Positions 1-10,360 of a stretch of 64,000 bases of DNA are shown here, one piece after another (the stretch's first letter is position 1; every line of letters begins with the position of its first letter). Both the position numbers and the translations under genes were made by a program. A model generated the notes under the pieces. The model saw only the letters and a list, made by a program, of their open reading frames with translations. It was not told the origin of the DNA and made no database searches. Where the stretch lies: NCBI GenBank assembly GCA_020444065.1, contig JAHLLQ010000011.1, positions 1 through 64,000 on the forward strand. The letters are read 5' to 3'. The DNA is from a bacterium (GTDB lineage Bacteria > Sumerlaeota > Sumerlaeia > SLMS01 > JAHLLQ01).

Positions 1-1
1 C

Positions 2-238
2 TCCGCACTCCACCGATGCAGTCACTTCAAGACGTGTGCCTCGTGGGACGGTTACATAGTTCCTTTCTACTTGAGAGGATTTGTGAAGGTTCAATCAATG
101 CTCGCACTGCGACAGGTTCGAATGAGCGGGCTGGAGGAGATCGCTTTGCCAAGTACTAGGAGTGCGATGAGTCAGTTGTTACCTTGGGAGCAGATTGAGC
201 CTAGAGTGCGCACCCACAAGAGCCTCTGGGTGGGATGA
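2..238 (+). CDS. Possible 3' end of an unknown gene
   Basis: Frame 2 is open from the left edge to a TGA at 236-238, about 78 codons, with no start needed inside the window. The peptide has ordinary composition (residues include FKTCASWDGYIVPFYL and LLPWEQIEPRVRTHKSLWVG near the end). I do not recognise it. An open frame of this length can occur by chance. Confidence 0.2.
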   Translation, partial: SALHRCSHFKTCASWDGYIVPFYLRGFVKVQSMLALRQVRMSGLEEIALPSTRSAMSQLLPWEQIEPRVRTHKSLWVG

Positions 239-674
239 GCAATACCTCAGGCGCATTGAATACACTTGCGTGCGATGTCCGGTTGCGATGAGCCCCAAGT
301 CCTCTGTCGATGGAGCGGTTTCTGACTTCAAGGGGACGGGTTGGGGTATCTCCTTACGGATGAGGCAAACTTTTCCCCGCAGAAAATGACGGTATATGTT
401 TCGTATTTCTCCGACTGCTGACGGTATCTATTTCGTATGTTCCAGATCGGATTCTCTCGCTTTTTCCCATTCCTCATCCCTCTCATACCGATTGCTTGAA
501 TCCGCGAACCCTATACTCGCGTGAGCCAAGGGTATGTACAACCATTCCTCAGTGGAGACGACTTCCTCGGATTTTGCATCGCCGGGAAAAGCCGATAAGA
601 ATGCTTTTTTCTTCCGCCGGTATGGCACCAAAAAGATACCCCCCCCTCCTTCCCTGGGCAAAAAGAAAGCTCCC
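239..674. other. Non-coding stretch with a direct-repeat pair
   Basis: No convincing coding frame on either strand. It holds one pair of 20-bp direct repeats (387-438, listed separately) and leads into the long repeat array. Short open frames exist but have no ribosome binding sites or recognisable peptide. Confidence 0.5.
387..438. repeat. Pair of 20-bp direct repeats, 32-bp pitch
   Basis: TGACGGTATATGTTTCGTAT at 387-406 and TGACGGTATCTATTTCGTAT at 419-438 match at 18 of 20 positions. Start-to-start distance is 32 bp, close to three helical turns, so a protein could bind both on one face. It lies upstream of the larger array and has a different sequence from it. Candidate operator or replication-initiator site; function unknown. 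Confidence 0.6.
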
Positions 675-1368
675 CACTCCGGGTTGGACTAAACACAACC
701 TTCCCCAATCGAATCTCACCAGGCGGGTGCGGACCACGCCAAAAACTCCGGGTTGGACTAAACGTACCTTCTGGCAATGCTGATCGCTACGTACTGGCTG
801 GCTGTGCAGATTCCGGGTTGGACTAAGTACCACGCTTTCGATTCGGTCCTTCGCAATGTGGTGGCTGGTCACTCGCTGAACTCCGGGTTGGACTAAACAG
901 GCACATTCTGAAAACTCCGGGTTGGACTAAACGTGCCCTCCGGCATCGATTGCCATCGTGAGCTGAAATACTAACCGAACTCCGGGTTGTACTAAACATG
1001 CCCATTGGTATTTATCGTCGTCATGCGGTGGCTGGCTATGCAAACTCCGGGTTGGACTAGACAGGCACACTTCGAAAACTCCGGGTTGGAGTAATTCGGC
1101 GCATCGCCGAGGATTGCCATCATGTGCTGGCTGGCACTCCTCCAACTCCGGGTTGGACTAAGCAGAACGCTCTCGATTCGGTTCTTCGGAATGCGGTGGC
1201 TGGCAACTCCGGGATCTCCGGGTTGAGCTGAACAGGTCTATTGGCATTGGTTGCTGTAAAGTGCTGGCTGGCACTCCTCGAACTCCGGGTTGGACTAAAC
1301 GTGCCTTCTGACATTGATTGCCGTCATGTGCTGGCTGGAACGCTTTGCCTCTCCGGGTTGCAGTAAAA
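675..1368. repeat. Diverged tandem array, 12 units, core AACTCCGGGTTGGACTAAAC
   Basis: A 20-bp core recurs at 675, 744, 809, 879, 913, 978, 1043, 1077, 1144, 1214, 1281 and 1349 (some copies with 1-5 mismatches; a 9-bp fragment also at 1205). Steps are 65-70 bp, except two of exactly 34 bp (879 to 913 and 1043 to 1077). The long inter-core segments are related: most carry a second block of the form GTGCTGGCTGGCA near their 3' end and a GTGCC-TTCTG-like start. The two short ones are nearly identical to each other (AGGCACATTCTGAA, AGGCACACTTCGAA). So this is a composite repeat, not a CRISPR. It ends about 50 bp before the start of the ArdC-like gene. Iterons of a replication origin or a multi-site regulatory region are the leading ideas; neither is shown. 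Confidence 0.9.
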
Positions 1369-1415
1369 AACCTTCCCACCGCCTCAAGTCATCTCACACG
1401 AAAGGAATCGTGACG

Positions 1416-2507
1416 ATGACGAAGGCGGCAAACACAAACTTCGAGGATGAGTTCCTGCTGAAGCTCATTCGGACTATCGAGAAACAGTTGGAGAACGGTG
1501 TAAAGCGACTCCCTTGGCACTCTACTCACTATCTGGTCAGCCATATTCCGACGAACGCTCTCAAGCACTTCTCCTACAGCGGCGAATCATGCCCCAATGG
1601 CGTGCCGTACACGGGAAATTTCAACAGGCTTCTCCTATTTCTCGTTTCGCAGATTGCGAGCGAACGCAGAGGGCTACCACTGGATTGCAGATTTGCCTGC
1701 CGATCAGATTTGAAGCGCTACTTCAACGCGGGCGTGCGCATCAAAAGAAATCCGTATGTCGGAGAGAAGACTGATCTATCGCACTACATAATGGTGAAGG
1801 TATTCCGACCGATCACATCCATTCGTGAGGTCCCGAACGAGGATTTCAACCCCGCTCTTCCCGAATCCACCAATAATGCGAGGGCAAAGAAGGTTTATGT
1901 TCCTACCGGGCGATATGCGTTAGGTGGCTCAGTTCTTTCCATTCTCGACACCAACCTACTTGAGATTGGGATGCTGGGAAAAGACCCGGCAACTATCAAG
2001 CGAGAGAATCCACCTCTGACCAAGGTTCAGCGTGTTATCGATTCTCTTCCGTGTTTGTGGAGGGAAGCAAATGAGACTCCGCATTACTCGCTCAGGACCC
2101 ACGAAATTACCATCCCTCCCAGATCCCAAGCGAAGAGCAGTCTCGTACACGCCCAGACCTGCCTCCATGAGATTGCCCATTTTCTGGGTCACTGCTTGGG
2201 CGAGTTCTCCGAAATCCGTGAAATCAAACAGCGATCATTCGAGGAGCTTGTCGCCGAGTTCACAGGCACCTATGTTCTCGGTCAACTAGGCTATCTCACG
2301 GATTGTGCGCCGGAGTATGCCAACTCTGTCAGCTACCTGAACAACTGGATGGCGGCGCTGCACGACCAGCCAAGTATGCTTCTCAAGGCGGCACAGCGAG
2401 CCGTGGTTAGGGGAAACATCATCTTGAGCGGGAAGATCGATCCCAAACTTGTTTACAATCTCAACGAGTTTCCGTTCTTGCGGGATTCTCTGCCAACCGC
2501 CGCCTAG
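1416..2507 (+). CDS. ArdC-like antirestriction/zincin protein
   Basis: 363-aa protein resembling ArdC: an N-terminal ssDNA-binding-type region (GVPYTGNFNRLLLFL near residue 70) and a C-terminal metalloprotease-like domain with HEIAH at residues 251-255, followed by a downstream glutamate in FEELVAEFTGTYVL. ArdC proteins of plasmids and ICEs protect incoming single-stranded DNA from host restriction; some cases are shown for conjugative plasmids. The start at 1416 follows GAAAGGAA; an upstream in-frame start at 1314 would run through the repeat array and has no binding site. The gene lies directly downstream of the array, and a hairpin follows its stop. Family assignment is from motif recognition, and activity is not shown. 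Confidence 0.7.
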   Translation: MTKAANTNFEDEFLLKLIRTIEKQLENGVKRLPWHSTHYLVSHIPTNALKHFSYSGESCPNGVPYTGNFNRLLLFLVSQIASERRGLPLDCRFACRSDLKRYFNAGVRIKRNPYVGEKTDLSHYIMVKVFRPITSIREVPNEDFNPALPESTNNARAKKVYVPTGRYALGGSVLSILDTNLLEIGMLGKDPATIKRENPPLTKVQRVIDSLPCLWREANETPHYSLRTHEITIPPRSQAKSSLVHAQTCLHEIAHFLGHCLGEFSEIREIKQRSFEELVAEFTGTYVLGQLGYLTDCAPEYANSVSYLNNWMAALHDQPSMLLKAAQRAVVRGNIILSGKIDPKLVYNLNEFPFLRDSLPTAA

Positions 2508-2514
2508 GCAGAGG

Positions 2515-2700
2515 GGCAGAGGAGGTCTTCACACGGGCTTCCTCTGCCAGCCAGGTCGTGACATCCCTGACATCATGACGTTCGGAGGCATTGCGTGAAT
2601 CCACGATGCCGGTCGCCTCCGTGTGCCCACGCATACGGACAACCAACAACTCATGGGCTCGTGCTCATGCGGGGGACTCGCTGCGTCGGGTCCCCCTTTC
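2515..2700 (+). promoter_or_regulatory. Three-hairpin leader before the serine recombinase
   Basis: Three stems lie in the 218-bp gap. 2515-2523 pairs with 2540-2548 (9 bp). 2587-2597 pairs with 2602-2610 (GGCAT and CGTG helices around a 4-nt loop), with a possible outer CGGA/TCCG helix at 2583-2621. 2671-2677 pairs with 2690-2696 (GGGGGAC/GTCCCCC) and is followed by TTTC, giving a terminator-like shape only about 30 bp before the start codon. This looks like an attenuator or a structured recombination site. Pairing was done by eye. Confidence 0.45.
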
Positions 2701-2725
2701 CATCTCAGATAAGGAAGACACCAAA

Positions 2726-3436
2726 ATGACCATTAAGGCGGTGTGTTACGGGCGGGTATCAATTGAAGAGCAAGCCCGTGAAGGAGTTTCCCTCGCGGCG
2801 CAGCGGGCGAAAATCGAAGCCTACTGCATGCTGCATGATATCGAGTTGGTTTCCTATCACGAGGATGCTGGAATCTCGGGCAAGGCAATGGACAATCGTG
2901 ACGGGCTCCAGACATGCCTGGCTGAACTCCGCGCAGGAAAGGCGAATGCCTGCGTTTGCTGGAAGCTTGATCGTTTGTCGAGGAGCACACGAGATGTCCT
3001 TGAGATGTCTGATCTCTTCCAGCGAGAAGGCTGGGCGCTTCACTCGATCAGCGAGAAGCTCGATACATCCAGTGCCGCCGGACGTTTCGTCCTGACGATT
3101 CTGGCCGCCTTGGCTCAGATGGAGCGCGAGCAGATCGGCGAGCGGACTTCGATGGCGCTGCAATTTAAGAAGTCCAGGGGCGAGAGACTCGGCACGACTC
3201 CTTTCGGATTCCGAACTGAATGCATAGACGGTGAGAACCAACTCGTTCCCATCGAGGAGGAGCAGGAGATCATCCGCCGGATGGCTCGACTCCGTTCATC
3301 CGGCGCCACGTTCCAAGCAATTGCCGATCTGCTGAACGACGAAGGAATTCCGACAAAGAGATCCGGCAGGTGGCACCCAGGCAGTGTGAGTTACGTGCTC
3401 AAAAATGTGCTCCCGAGGCTCGAAAATGCCGCCTGA
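2726..3436 (+). CDS. Serine recombinase (resolvase/invertase type), short form
   Basis: 236 aa. The N-terminal resolvase domain (about 1-145) has the nucleophile Ser12 in YGRVS and the arginine-rich motif KLDRLSRSTRD. Residues about 155-236 match the start of the Recombinase domain found in large serine recombinases (TPFGFRTE, then a helix-turn-helix-like ATFQAIADLLNDEGIPTKRSG). The zinc-ribbon and coiled-coil parts of large serine integrases are absent, so it is much shorter than the usual 450-550 aa. It should cut and rejoin DNA, for example to resolve multimers or invert a segment. The start at 2726 has AAGGAAG 8 nt upstream. It sits behind a leader of three hairpins and is followed by a clear terminator. 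Confidence 0.85.
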   Translation: MTIKAVCYGRVSIEEQAREGVSLAAQRAKIEAYCMLHDIELVSYHEDAGISGKAMDNRDGLQTCLAELRAGKANACVCWKLDRLSRSTRDVLEMSDLFQREGWALHSISEKLDTSSAAGRFVLTILAALAQMEREQIGERTSMALQFKKSRGERLGTTPFGFRTECIDGENQLVPIEEEQEIIRRMARLRSSGATFQAIADLLNDEGIPTKRSGRWHPGSVSYVLKNVLPRLENAA

Positions 3437-3501
3437 AGGATGTCAATTTCATAAAAACGGTCCTTTTTGATAAAGACCAACGCAGAATTCACCGAAATTG
3501 A

Positions 3502-3530
3502 CCCCTCTCGAATCACTCGGGAGGGGTTTT
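3502..3530 (+). terminator. Rho-independent terminator after the serine recombinase
   Basis: CCCCTCTCG (3502-3510) pairs with CGGGAGGGG (3518-3526), 9 bp with one G-T, 7-nt loop, followed by TTTT. It ends the recombinase transcript before the next gene at 3559. Confidence 0.75.
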
Positions 3531-3558
3531 CCAAGTTATCTCAGAAAGGAGACAGTCC

Positions 3559-3939
3559 ATGTCCAAGAAAGGACTTCAAGGGAGCCGCGGCTTCTTGGAT
3601 CATGACCTCCGGGTCAACCTCTCGCCGAAATTCATCTTCTGGTTCTGGTTCATCCCGGCGCTTGCCGTCTGGCTTTGGATCTCGGGAATGATGTTCTTTG
3701 GCGACACTTCAATCCGGCCGCCCGAATACGACGCGGCGGGCAACCCCGTGGATTTTGAGGCGTGGCAGCGATACATCCTCCTGGGCGAGCAAAGTGACAG
3801 CGATTTCCCATTCTGGTCCAAGGTCCTCGGATCTGGGACCATGTTCGCCTATCTGGTGTGGTGGGGGATTCGGCTTCAGGTCGAGATGTGGGCCCTCCGC
3901 AGAGTCAGCCGCAAAATGAGGCGCTGGCTGAATGACTAG
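3559..3939 (+). CDS. Small two-helix membrane protein, unknown
   Basis: 126 aa with a strong ribosome binding site (AAAGGAG 6-7 nt before the ATG). Two hydrophobic segments, about residues 25-47 (FIFWFWFIPALAVWLW) and 88-106, are joined by a short acidic, proline-containing loop; both termini are basic, so both probably face the cytoplasm. I do not recognise a family. Small membrane proteins of integrated elements may serve in exclusion or maintenance, but nothing here shows that. Confidence 0.65.
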   Translation: MSKKGLQGSRGFLDHDLRVNLSPKFIFWFWFIPALAVWLWISGMMFFGDTSIRPPEYDAAGNPVDFEAWQRYILLGEQSDSDFPFWSKVLGSGTMFAYLVWWGIRLQVEMWALRRVSRKMRRWLND

Positions 3940-4014
3940 TTCAGAATAGCAAGGTTGACTCCAGCGCTACTTAATTGTCCCATGCCTCATCCAAAGGATT
4001 GCTGCGTATGCACT

Positions 4015-4857
4015 ATGCCTCGTATAAACTTGAAGAGGTTGCTGGTCGACGACAAGGCGGCATTCGATTTCATCCGATGCTCCACAAAATCACCATGGCC
4101 TATCATTTGCAGCTGTGGTTCTCAAGATTTGAGATTGATCAAGAATCCTTCTCTTAGATTCCGATGCCGGTCATGCCGAAGATCTGTATCGTTATGGAAG
4201 GGCAGTCTCTTCTCGGGATTACGAATTCCTCCAACTCATTGGCTTGCCATTCTCAACGACCTTTCAGCCCCCCCGTTCGTTATCCGTTCCACGACAGCAT
4301 GCAAAGGAACGGCAGCGAGGGCGCGCCTCATTGTTGGCACTGCATTGGGGCGGGAGGAAGAGAAGTTCTGCGGAGACGCCCGCAAGACTCTGGCACTCTA
4401 CATGCGCATGCTATACTCCATGAAAACAGGCGCCGTCTGGGAGTTCATTCGGGACTATCGGGACTCCACCCGCATGGAATTCGTGCATGAGGGCAATGGC
4501 AGCGAGCGCAGACTTCCGAGGTTCATCCTCAGGGGTGCAGAGGTTATAAAGCCCCAGGCAGGAAGCCGGCGCATTGCCAACGTGGTGATAACGGCCGTTG
4601 AGGATCAGATCCATGCCGTGTGTGTTCGGCCCGATCACAGGTCACTCGAAGGTCTGGCCGCTCCTGACGACGGTTGGTTAAAAAGTTGCCCGGATCCAGT
4701 GCCGATCCAGATGCTCTGGGACTCCTTCGCGCGTCTGAAGGGAATTAGCCCGTGGGCTTTTCCCGTCTATTGCTTCCTGGTAAATGTCGATAGGGACGCC
4801 CGGAAATCCAGCACCTCACCACTGAGGCATCTCGTTAGAATATGTGCCACTAAATAG
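4015..4857 (+). CDS. Orphan IS1595-type zinc-ribbon protein without a transposase core
   Basis: 280 aa. Residues 1-80 look like the N-terminal part of IS1595/ISXO2 transposases: MPRINLKRLL-type start, a zinc ribbon with C32, C34, C51 and C54, then SLWKGSLFSGLRIPPTHWLAIL, matching the conserved stretch after the ribbon. The first knuckle is CxC rather than CxxC. The remaining 200 residues show no DDE/DDD transposase motif that I can see, and no terminal inverted repeats are evident around the gene. It may be a transposase-derived DNA-binding protein or a decayed transposase. An upstream in-frame ATG at 3955 exists, but the family start favours 4015. Confidence 0.5.
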   Translation: MPRINLKRLLVDDKAAFDFIRCSTKSPWPIICSCGSQDLRLIKNPSLRFRCRSCRRSVSLWKGSLFSGLRIPPTHWLAILNDLSAPPFVIRSTTACKGTAARARLIVGTALGREEEKFCGDARKTLALYMRMLYSMKTGAVWEFIRDYRDSTRMEFVHEGNGSERRLPRFILRGAEVIKPQAGSRRIANVVITAVEDQIHAVCVRPDHRSLEGLAAPDDGWLKSCPDPVPIQMLWDSFARLKGISPWAFPVYCFLVNVDRDARKSSTSPLRHLVRICATK

Positions 4858-6050: not shown

Positions 6051-6221
6051 ATGAAAACTCACACGCAAATCTGGCCAAGGGAGAGATCCCGAAATCCGTT
6101 ATCGTATTGGAATAGTGGGGATAGGCGGCGTTGCAGCCCGCCGAACGGAGACCCTCGCCTCCTTCCCCTTCCTTCTTACCAGCGAGGGCAAAGAATCTTA
6201 CATGCGAGGGAACAACAATGA
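6051..6221 (+). CDS. Possible 56-aa basic peptide coupled to the primase gene
   Basis: ATG at 6051, preceded by AAGAGG, runs to a TGA at 6219-6221 that overlaps the primase ATG (ATGA). The peptide is rich in Arg and Pro and starts MKTHTQIWPRERSRN. The overlap suggests translational coupling, but the composition is unconvincing. Otherwise the 5645-6217 gap holds only the decayed frame described above. Confidence 0.25.
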   Translation: MKTHTQIWPRERSRNPLSYWNSGDRRRCSPPNGDPRLLPLPSYQRGQRILHAREQQ

Positions 6222-7948
6222 CTATCAGCGAGGAAACCAGGCTCTGCGAAGCCTGCAACAAACAGCAGACAGAAGACGACTTCGGTAGCGCAGAGTCCAA
6301 TATCTGCAAGCGCTGTGCGAAGAAGGAACAACGGCAAAGGCTCCTGAAATCCGCTAACCTGCTTCAGACTACACGCACTGCTCCGGAGATCTACGGGATA
6401 TACAACCGCTTGTATCATCTTGATTACTCAGAGGATGATCCGGATCGCCCGTGGGTCGCAAATTACCCGAGACTTATCTACTCAACCCGTCACGGCAAGA
6501 AGGAATGGGTCACCGTTCCCAGCAAATGGGAGAAGACGCCTGAGAAGGCTCTCAAAATGGCGAGGAAATACGCTGGTGACGTTCAGTTCAAGATGGGCGT
6601 GGGAACACGGGACCTCGAAAGAAAATGGATCTATGCAATCGAGGTGGACGCGGACAAGGGACGGGTGGATGAGAAGAATATGTGGGCCCTCATTAATGAG
6701 AGAGTCCTGCGGCACTTCGAGAGACTCGGAATCCGGCCGCACCTCATGCTCACCGGGCGCCGCTCAGTACATGCTCAATGGTTCTTCAAAGAGCCGTTAA
6801 ACCGTGAGCAGATTCAGAGTTTCCGTCTGCTGGCAGGGAAGATATTCAAAGGGAAGGCGGATAAGGACACCGAGGTGAATTCATTGAGGGTGGCAGGCAT
6901 TATGCACTCAGGAACGGGTGAGATCTCCAGATACCCAGGCAACAGAACCCTGGATGATGTCCTTGATTACATGGAGAGCATAGAACCCGTCCGAGTGACA
7001 GATGAGATCATCGAGAGGTTGAAGAGGGAAATTGGCATCAAGGGACCAGTGGTGAAGGAGATTGTGGGAGTGGCTTTAAAGAGAGAAGAGGAGGAGAGGA
7101 GAGAGGAGAGAGATAATAATATAGTAGCTCTCACGAATATACCCTCTCCAGAGCCGTCAATCACTGAAGTAAAAGGACATACGCTTGATTCTGGCTTACA
7201 CCGTTTTGATTACCTCGACATTATTCCACCGCACAAGTCCTGTGAGGTTCTCTTCAAGACATCCCTCGTCTTTGATACTTACCGTGAGAACCATGGATGT
7301 ATCGAAGCCACACGCAAGGCACTGATCCCTCCCCTTCGGGCCGGGGCAAGATCCGAAGAGGTCTTCCAAGAGCGGCTGGAGAGATTAGAGGACTGCCTCA
7401 GCCATCTTCCCGAATACCGCCCGTCTGCACGTCCAAAGCTTGAATACACCTCCAAGGACGATTCACGCATAAAAAACGCCCTGAGAAGGCTCAGGCGGCT
7501 TCTGAGGAGGGGTACAGACTTCAAGGGCATGAACAAAGTCGCCCGCTACGTTTACCGCCAGATTCTCGATTACGGCGGGGAAGCAGACCTTGGGGTGAAT
7601 CAGATCGCCAAGGAGACCGGATACCCCACCTCAACCGTTGCCACGTGGATGAGGCAGCTATCGGGCATGGAGGGGAAGTCCGTCCGGCTGTTCCATTGTG
7701 AGGACGAGTTCTCACCGCCCATGGCTGACAACAGAACTCGTTGCTGGAGGATCAAAGGCGTCGAATGCCTGCGGAAGGATCAGGACCGCCGTTGGACAGA
7801 ACTCCAGAGGTGGATAAGGACCGGAGAGGGCACAGATGCCATCTTGGAAGAAATCATCGCTCGGAATGGAAAGCCAACATTCGAAACCCCGAAATACCCA
7901 GCGGCGAAGGAGGGAGAACAATGCTACGATGGATCAGCCGCAGGATGA
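6218..7948 (+). CDS. AEP-family primase/replication protein
   Basis: 576 aa. The N-terminal zinc knuckle pairs are C10/C13 and C30/C33. The core has the archaeo-eukaryotic primase signature: D144 and D146 in IYAIEVDADKG (motif I), S183 and H185 in RRSVHAQWFF (motif II) and a downstream NSLRVAGIMHSGTG block like the third motif region. A C-terminal helix-turn-helix lies near residues 480-500 (LGVNQIAKETGYPTSTVATW). AEP primases of plasmids and integrative elements make primers for their own replication; this suggests the element replicates autonomously at some stage. No helicase domain is visible in the same protein. Start 6218 follows GAGGG. A small gene overlaps its 3' end. Confidence 0.7.
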   Translation: MTISEETRLCEACNKQQTEDDFGSAESNICKRCAKKEQRQRLLKSANLLQTTRTAPEIYGIYNRLYHLDYSEDDPDRPWVANYPRLIYSTRHGKKEWVTVPSKWEKTPEKALKMARKYAGDVQFKMGVGTRDLERKWIYAIEVDADKGRVDEKNMWALINERVLRHFERLGIRPHLMLTGRRSVHAQWFFKEPLNREQIQSFRLLAGKIFKGKADKDTEVNSLRVAGIMHSGTGEISRYPGNRTLDDVLDYMESIEPVRVTDEIIERLKREIGIKGPVVKEIVGVALKREEEERREERDNNIVALTNIPSPEPSITEVKGHTLDSGLHRFDYLDIIPPHKSCEVLFKTSLVFDTYRENHGCIEATRKALIPPLRAGARSEEVFQERLERLEDCLSHLPEYRPSARPKLEYTSKDDSRIKNALRRLRRLLRRGTDFKGMNKVARYVYRQILDYGGEADLGVNQIAKETGYPTSTVATWMRQLSGMEGKSVRLFHCEDEFSPPMADNRTRCWRIKGVECLRKDQDRRWTELQRWIRTGEGTDAILEEIIARNGKPTFETPKYPAAKEGEQCYDGSAAG

Positions 7949-8704: not shown

Positions 8705-9103
8705 ATGTCACACCAGTTCAACCCCCACACCATCTACGCCACTTCCGAATTGGAGACCATCCTTAAGGGCTCGGTGAAAATCGAGACTCTTCGGGAGTAC
8801 GGCCTCGTTGGACTACCCGGTGCAGGCTACTGGGGAGGAAATGTGATTGAGGCGCTGGACCGTTTGTGCGAGGCCCGGCAACGTCAACGTGGACTGCGAG
8901 CATCGGAAAGGATACGCAACGATGCCTCGCAAGCAAGAAGCAAGGAGAACGCTCGTCGTCGCCGACTGGCACGTCGAGGAAAGGAGAGCCAAGAGGTTCA
9001 AAGTCATGGAAATCGACGGAAGCAGACAGTTCACCGTCCATCAGGCAAGCCCGAAGAAGTACCGTGTCAGCGGGAAAAACTCAAAGGGCTCCTTGGTGCG
9101 TGA
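8705..9103 (+). CDS. Excisionase-like / MerR-type small DNA-binding protein
   Basis: 132 aa. Residues 10-65 (IYATSELETILKGSVKIETLREYGLVGL, then GYWGGNVIEAL and a basic helix) resemble a winged-helix specificity domain like those of excisionases. The tail (about 65-132) is very basic and overlaps the integrase start by about 180 bp in another frame, so it may be a read-through product of a lost stop, or real. Position just before the integrase and motif style suggest control of excision. I cannot separate this from a generic HTH protein. Confidence 0.5.
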   Translation: MSHQFNPHTIYATSELETILKGSVKIETLREYGLVGLPGAGYWGGNVIEALDRLCEARQRQRGLRASERIRNDASQARSKENARRRRLARRGKESQEVQSHGNRRKQTVHRPSGKPEEVPCQREKLKGLLGA

Positions 9104-10265
9104 AAGGTTTGCATCCGACAACATTGAGACCGCCGTCCTGCATGCCGCCTCTGTGCTGTACGGCGATCCGATGCCAAACCTCCTCGATCCTCGGGAGATG
9201 GATCTAGCAGATGCTTTCGCTAGAGCCATTGCCGCAGGTCATGGGCAACCCGAGAACAAGAGGAACCAACTCCGCTACGCCCTCTACTTCGTCAAGTGGG
9301 CAGTGGGGGAGGGACTTGAAAGGTGGTGTCAGATTAGAAGGACCGATATCGATGGCTACGTGAATGAACTCGCCCGCCGCGGCCTAAAACGAAAGACCAT
9401 CCGGAATTATCTGGAGCCGGTTCGCACAACTGGAGCACGGATGCACGAGGACTTCCCAGAGTTGCACAATCCGCTCGCCTCCTTCCGTCTGCGGAAAGGT
9501 CTGGGTGACTCGTATCGCTATGATGACCACTTCGGGAACGAAGCCCTGTCCTTCGAAGAGGTACTGGCATTGTCGGAGTGGTTGAAGGCGCACCGGCACG
9601 GCCGCGTTCTCCGCCTTGGAGTCCTCTTATCCGGCCTGATGGGGTTACGTCAGCGGGAAGCGATCTTCCTCACGTGGAAGAATGTGGATCTCGAAGACGG
9701 AACTCTCACGATCCAGGAAGAGGACGGGCACAAACCGAAGAATACTTATTCGATTCGTCGGCTCCCAGTTCCCAAGATCATTCTGAGTGAGCTTCGGGGG
9801 ATTCCGAGTGCCCAGCGAACAGGCAGGGTAATCCGGCCGGAGGAACTGAAGAAGTTCCATCGCTGCAAGGACGAGAACTTCGCCTACGATCTCTCGCACT
9901 ACTACTCCCTGAGTCTTAATGCGGCGCTCAAGGAATGGAGGAAGGGAATCCGTTTATCGGCGAAGGATTTGAGGAGGACCATCCAGACCCACGCACTGGA
10001 TAATCCGGGAAACTGGAACCAGATGCTCGTGGATCGTTACTGTGGGCATGCCCCGACAACCATGATGGAGAGGCACTACTTCGCGGACCAGCGGAAGCGC
10101 CTCGTTGGGCTGTTTCGACGGCATGTGACACCCATGATCGATGCCGAAGTCGAGGCGGCTCTGGCAGCGAAATCCGAGGTACAAAAATGCATAAAAATGC
10201 ACAATCCCGAGGGAGCACCCCCGGGACAGCCATCAAAGATTATTGAAATTGCTGATCTTGCGTGA
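8922..10265 (+). CDS. Tyrosine integrase of the tRNA-Leu element
   Basis: 447 aa site-specific recombinase. The N-terminal SAM-like/arm domain spans about residues 60-180; the catalytic domain has R243 (GLRQREA), K348-D-L-R351, H376 in GH and the nucleophile Y386 in MMERHY. The usual His of HxLR is replaced by Lys, a variation seen in some phage and ICE integrases. A tail of 60 residues follows the Tyr. ATG at 8922 has GGAAAGG upstream; an earlier in-frame start at 8847 overlaps the excisionase-like gene more deeply. The stop is 7 bp from the tRNA 3' end, which places the gene at the attachment site and names its target. Confidence 0.9.
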   Translation: MPRKQEARRTLVVADWHVEERRAKRFKVMEIDGSRQFTVHQASPKKYRVSGKNSKGSLVRERFASDNIETAVLHAASVLYGDPMPNLLDPREMDLADAFARAIAAGHGQPENKRNQLRYALYFVKWAVGEGLERWCQIRRTDIDGYVNELARRGLKRKTIRNYLEPVRTTGARMHEDFPELHNPLASFRLRKGLGDSYRYDDHFGNEALSFEEVLALSEWLKAHRHGRVLRLGVLLSGLMGLRQREAIFLTWKNVDLEDGTLTIQEEDGHKPKNTYSIRRLPVPKIILSELRGIPSAQRTGRVIRPEELKKFHRCKDENFAYDLSHYYSLSLNAALKEWRKGIRLSAKDLRRTIQTHALDNPGNWNQMLVDRYCGHAPTTMMERHYFADQRKRLVGLFRRHVTPMIDAEVEAALAAKSEVQKCIKMHNPEGAPPGQPSKIIEIADLA

Positions 10266-10272
10266 AAAAGAA

Positions 10273-10360
10273 TGGTGCCCAGGAGAGGACTTGAACCTCC
10301 ACGGCCTTAACGGCCACTGGATCCTTAGTCCAGCGCGTCTGCCAATTCCGCCACCTGGGC
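10273..10360 (-). tRNA. tRNA-Leu, anticodon AAG; attachment site at its 3' end
   Basis: Minus-strand class II tRNA with encoded CCA: acceptor GCCCAGG/CCTGGGC plus A-CCA, D arm, anticodon stem CTGGA/TCCAG with loop CTAAGGA, long variable arm of about 16 nt, and T arm with TTCAAGT. The loop gives anticodon AAG (codon CUU), with G37 as expected. A34 is unusual in bacterial tRNA-Leu and would need conversion to inosine. The gene is intact, so the element regenerates its 3' part. The rest of the 10266-10623 gap shows no gene. Confidence 0.93.

Follow-up and report, generated by a model that had tools for sequence, protein, structure and literature searches.

Twelve copies of a 16-bp core (motif CTCCGGGTTGGACTAA), all in the same orientation on the forward strand, form an array at positions 677-1366 of the window, i.e., the 64,000-nucleotide stretch of DNA that was analyzed. 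In the whole genome (5.2 Mb, 14 contigs), a cluster of cores occurs at this locus only. Its location is the non-coding part of the left arm of an element integrated at a tRNA-Leu gene, and neither the element nor much about its phylum has been described. Conservation is concentrated in the core, and the pattern suggests that the array is probably protein-binding. Judged by position and precedent, an iteron-like role appears most likely, and we tentatively favor the reading that the array is an iteron-like replication or maintenance-control locus of the integrative element. The features concerned are as follows.

1..55, no strand: end of a multi-copy insertion sequence, probably IS66-like, with an assembly break at the window start
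387-406 and 419-438, + strand: short direct repeat TGACGGTATnTnTTTCGTAT, absent elsewhere in the window
677..1366, + strand: array of 12 same-orientation cores, consensus aaCTCCGGGTTGGACTAAac
794..1338, + strand: block 2 (TGGCTGG), in 7/9 long units, 8-11 bp ahead of the next core
811..1236, + strand: second duplication, a "type B" unit (812-901 and 1147-1236), 82% identical at 335-bp spacing
881..1145, + strand: duplicated block with two 34-bp units (881-914 plus the next long unit, and 1045-1078 plus the next long unit)
1401..1406, + strand: ribosome-binding site AAAGGA, read from the sequence, between the array and the ArdC-like gene
1416..2507, + strand: ArdC-like zincin metallopeptidase gene (PF18818, E 2e-13; phrog_7245 anti-restriction, E 1e-16)
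2726..3436, + strand: serine recombinase, C-terminally short (Resolvase domain and first half of the Recombinase domain)
6218..7948, + strand: AEP/PrimPol-like protein with DxD and SxH motifs (TGRRSVHAQWFF / LRVAGIMHSGTGE) and a C-terminal HTH-like stretch
8705..9103, + strand: Xis-like small protein, conserved beside Int in two relatives
8922..10265, + strand: tyrosine integrase
10271..10295, no strand: attR core (25 bp), the 3' end of tRNA-Leu
10273..10360, - strand: tRNA-Leu (aag), the integration target

Cores, units and duplications

The cores start at 677, 746, 811, 881, 915, 980, 1045, 1079, 1146, 1216, 1283, and 1351, giving core-to-core steps of 69, 65, 70, 34, 65, 65, 34, 67, 70, 67, and 68 bp. 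When scanned with a tolerance of <=3 mismatches, the window held 12 matches, versus 0.44 expected from dinucleotide shuffles and a shuffle maximum of 3. The remaining matches in the genome were scattered three-mismatch sites, as frequent as those of a reversed-pattern control. The core array is real and local. Thus, the twelve diverged cores at 65-70 bp steps described in an earlier note on this DNA were all located, and repeats widespread in the host chromosome, a finding that by the earlier note would count against its reading, were not seen, as the genome scan finds no second cluster. A second, shorter direct repeat, TGACGGTATnTnTTTCGTAT, occurs in the same non-coding left arm as two copies 32 bp apart.

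The units between successive cores are long (65-70 bp) in nine cases and short (34 bp) in two. The long units are of two kinds, one reading GTGCC...GATTGCC...TGGCTGGC and the other (u3 and u9) CGATTCGGT..TTCG..GGTGGCTGG. In an alignment left-anchored on the core, 10/16 core columns were invariant across the 12 copies versus 0/38 columns in the flanks, and the invariant run TCCGGGTTG was contiguous, with sharp edges. Among five pairs with no unit in common, mismatches numbered 9/90 in the core and 68/211 in the filler (Fisher p 2.5e-5), i.e., a filler divergence ~three times that of the core, a contrast that is inflated because the core was picked post hoc. This unevenness is the strongest evidence of function and suggests that a protein recognizes the core. 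Since conservation is concentrated in the core and the filler has diverged ~3x as far, a protein-binding array fits better than a neutral minisatellite. The earlier proposal of a protein-DNA array maintained by selection is therefore favored by the pattern of conservation, while its other part, a maintained phasing, found no support.

The second conserved block that had been reported for most long segments was also recovered, its heart TGGCTGG being present in u2, u3, u6, u8, u9, u10, and u11 and missing from u1 and u5. Block 2 is real and looser than the core; an exact 13-mer, GTGCTGGCTGGCA, is found in u8 and u10 only. We rejected block 2 as a diverged core, its score not exceeding that of shuffles and a 23-bp sub-period reaching a z of only 3.1.

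Each of two segments 164 bp apart, 879-965 and 1043-1129 (79% identical), holds one of the 34-bp steps. Since both steps lie inside copies of one duplicated block, they represent one event plus duplication, not two independent events. The earlier observation of two exact 34-bp half-steps with near-identical fillers was correct in that both exist and their fillers match at 15/18 bases, but the two go back to a single event. The short unit resembles a long unit minus about 33 bp, as the unit alignment suggests. Autocorrelation peaked at lags of 164, 67, 65, and 137, with a z of only 1.3 at lag 34. Multiples of 33.6 bp describe the core starts well (R 0.96), and the 65-70 bp steps set neighboring cores 69-240 degrees apart, so that helical phase is lost. 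The 34-bp register is mostly ancestry, and the argument that its phasing is an independently maintained register was overstated, considering the one duplication, the weak signal at lag 34, and the lost helical phase.

The integrated element and its relatives

The array sits inside roughly 1.3 kb of DNA that holds no convincing gene and ends 50 bp before the ATG of the ArdC-like gene (array end 1366, RBS 1401, ATG 1416). The claim of an ArdC-like neighbor was borne out, in that the array adjoins the ribosome-binding site of a gene with matches to both PF18818 and phrog_7245. What had been called an AEP primase is less secure: the DxD/SxH motifs are present, but database support consists of a weak match to the PrimPol AEP domain of PDB 6zp9 (E 0.7 / 0.09), the sole structural hint. 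The HTH match of this protein has an E of 0.08, and its structure model (pLDDT 42) was unusable. Among the main element proteins scanned (small ORFs partly covered), no match was found to a relaxase or to the ParA/ParB families.

The attR 25-mer recurs once in the source genome, as an exact copy on another contig (G000:C1:560-584) and in the orientation expected for attL. The insertion sequence that opens the window's contig (C11) also begins contigs C1 and C10, and we infer a C1-C11 junction across this insertion-sequence break. Ends of the insertion sequence are present at several contig ends (G000:C1:1-231, C10, C12, and C3); on C1, one copy appears to lie inside another, beside attL.

When 40 genomes of the phylum were searched, both with the core pattern and with a profile built from the unit sequences, the array was recovered from the source genome only. 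Plasmid and phage collections gave no match to the array DNA, and scans of viral and GTDB-scale genome contigs for two-core patterns retrieved only unrelated tandem repeats. Of the searches that had been proposed, those of plasmids and of phylum genomes, along with a search for the same array in related elements, found no relative. The AEP-like protein and a zinc-ribbon-like protein of the element (4012-4857) likewise had no relatives in the 40 phylum genomes. A related element (L060, on G020:C64) does carry an integrase (38% identical) and an Xis-like protein (47% identical) beside tRNA-Leu, and this element had no array and no core. Since the array is absent from this Int/Xis-like relative, it is either of recent origin or moves together with that part of the element which varies. 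At 10723-12380 of L060, the Xis-like protein, integrase, and tRNA-Leu have the same layout, with different cargo.

Function of the array and rival explanations

If the array is an iteron-like locus, its twelve sites would be bound by one sequence-specific DNA-binding protein. The candidate binder would be a protein of the element, with the AEP/PrimPol-like protein and its HTH-like segment as first candidate. Binding to the cores on the excised circle would mark the replication origin, and titration by the cores would set copy number, as at the direct-repeat origins of other integrated elements. The 67-bp units may have spread by segmental duplications, with selection retaining the 16-bp core. 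The context is consistent with this scheme, as int, attR, and a matching attL bound the element and an AEP-like protein is encoded within it; moreover, the array consists of direct repeats within the ~16-22 bp range and single orientation typical of iterons (12 x 16 bp).

Precedents exist in several mobile elements. Repeats in a non-coding region serve as the origin of the satellite PLE (PMC7145576), the putative origin of SCCmec relies on direct repeats and a primase-helicase pair (PMC7581432), and SGI1 has an iteron-based oriV (PMC7433901). Like these, the array combines direct repeats in a non-coding part, an int-bearing element, and a replication-type protein; however, here 12 repeats of 16 bp recur every ~67 bp, DnaA box and AT-rich region are absent, and the candidate gene is far off. 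Within 1-1500, no 60-bp window exceeded 58% AT and no DnaA box matched within 2 mismatches. Further points against an origin are the 65-70 bp spacing, far above that of the 22-23 bp iterons beside the Rep gene in L121, the distance (~5 kb from the array) and weak identity of the AEP-like gene, and the loss of helical phase between cores. Array and AEP-like gene were found together in no relative. In Deinococcus, eleven 18-bp iterons in 445 bp provide both ori and parS-like function (PMC7671480). The D. radiodurans cisII/cisMP repeats, upstream of parAB, resemble the array in that a similar number of direct repeats of similar length, set widely apart, precedes a gene, but DnaA boxes and parAB occur there and are absent here, and no sequence relation was seen. 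Hence, the array resembles known iteron arrays and lacks part of what defines them, and the earlier remark that it could not be matched to a known origin type holds. It is improbable, though conceivable, that it represents a new type of origin or control locus of an AEP-led element, at which single sites, set wide apart at multiples of about 33.6 bp, would organize a nucleoprotein fiber with neither DnaA nor a neighboring initiator. Should it prove to be an origin or control locus, the array would mark integrative elements in a phylum whose mobile DNA has hardly been studied, and its iteron-like sites would lie about three times as far apart as usual.

The main rival reading, possible but doubtful, is that the array controls the ArdC-like gene as a long regulatory region of repeated operators or anti-readthrough sequences. 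These would silence the gene other than upon arrival in a new cell, in the manner of plasmid establishment genes. The array stands directly ahead of the ribosome-binding site, all cores face the gene, and no sigma-70-type promoter was found in 1-3600, in a scan that was weak (fewer sites than shuffles, unstudied phylum). In pLS20, a repeat-rich region of ~600 bp right upstream of the ardC RBS has no strong promoter and blocks readthrough (PMC8708921), and the present array matches this region, EGeRS1, in place and approximate size. However, EGeRS1 has inverted repeats with single-strand folding and lies ahead of five operons, whereas here the repeats are direct, fold no better than shuffles, and have no second copy ahead of another operon in the genome. 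A comparable array was also absent upstream of ArdC-like genes at ten plasmid loci, one of which has upstream repeats that are Rep-side iterons, and on these loci we rejected the idea that such arrays generally accompany ArdC-like genes. If the array did control the gene, it would represent a variant, built of direct repeats, of the repeat-rich leaders that precede establishment genes. An unlikely alternative is that functionless tandem duplications of a 67-bp segment produced a neutral or selfish minisatellite in a decaying left arm, which would make the array ordinary. The segmental duplications are clear (164- and 335-bp-spaced blocks), no relative has kept the array, and the insertion sequence at the window start together with the C-terminally short recombinase suggests that the element may be decaying. 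Neutral decay, however, should be even along the unit, and the invariant columns and the slower divergence are confined to the core.

Two further readings carry little weight. Direct repeats can be parS-like (PMC7671480), and L060 encodes a nearby ParA-like protein, as read from its translation; yet a centromere-like partition site of the excised element, which the earlier note had listed as an option, is quite improbable, given that the scanned element proteins include no ParA/ParB family match and that the ParA-bearing L060 has no such array. Least probable of all, and very unlikely, are arm-type or accessory integrase/excisionase sites near attL. Judging from the broken assembly, the array does occupy the arm beside attL, but 12 sites over 690 bp are far above the usual, no core-like site occurs near attR or in the attL arm, and L060 has neither array nor core despite its related Int and Xis-like proteins. 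A GGGTTGGAC-like site near attL fell under the score threshold and was rejected.

Other repeat classes

We also compared the array with other classes of repeats. An RNA or single-stranded DNA structure was rejected: the whole array folded with z of -0.5 and -1.3 relative to shuffles, single units folded like shuffles except for u8, with no RNA fold in common, and Rfam had nothing at the array. CRISPR, integron attC sites, and coding tandem repeats share short repeats and regular spacing with the array, but here the fillers are related, the steps are not multiples of three, and the frames are stopped. As the earlier note had held, the array is not a CRISPR, since its fillers are homologous to each other and are not unrelated spacers; cas and integron genes were not found among the proteins scanned. 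A coding repeat was dismissed because the steps mod 3 are mixed and every frame holds 3-10 stops. In one frame, the core translates as TPGWTK, and 33-bp coding repeats (TPGWTE) occur at the C-terminus of a phage protein (L070 3177-3301; also L068, L069, and L072) and in a contig binned as Legionellales. We rejected the phage repeat as a relative of the array, as it is coding and its match was preselected by the pattern. In Proteobacteria contigs (L082 264-500, and L077), 68-bp tandem fragments of a tRNA 3' end lie beside a seemingly complete tRNA. The L082 repeats share an 11-mer with the array, but an origin from tRNA T-arm fragments was rejected, as the array's own genome has no such tRNA match. 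Finally, plasmids of Thioclava and Phaeobacter carry dense repeats spaced at 14 bp, likely partition sites, next to ParA genes (L127 7187-7530 and L129 7179-7501).
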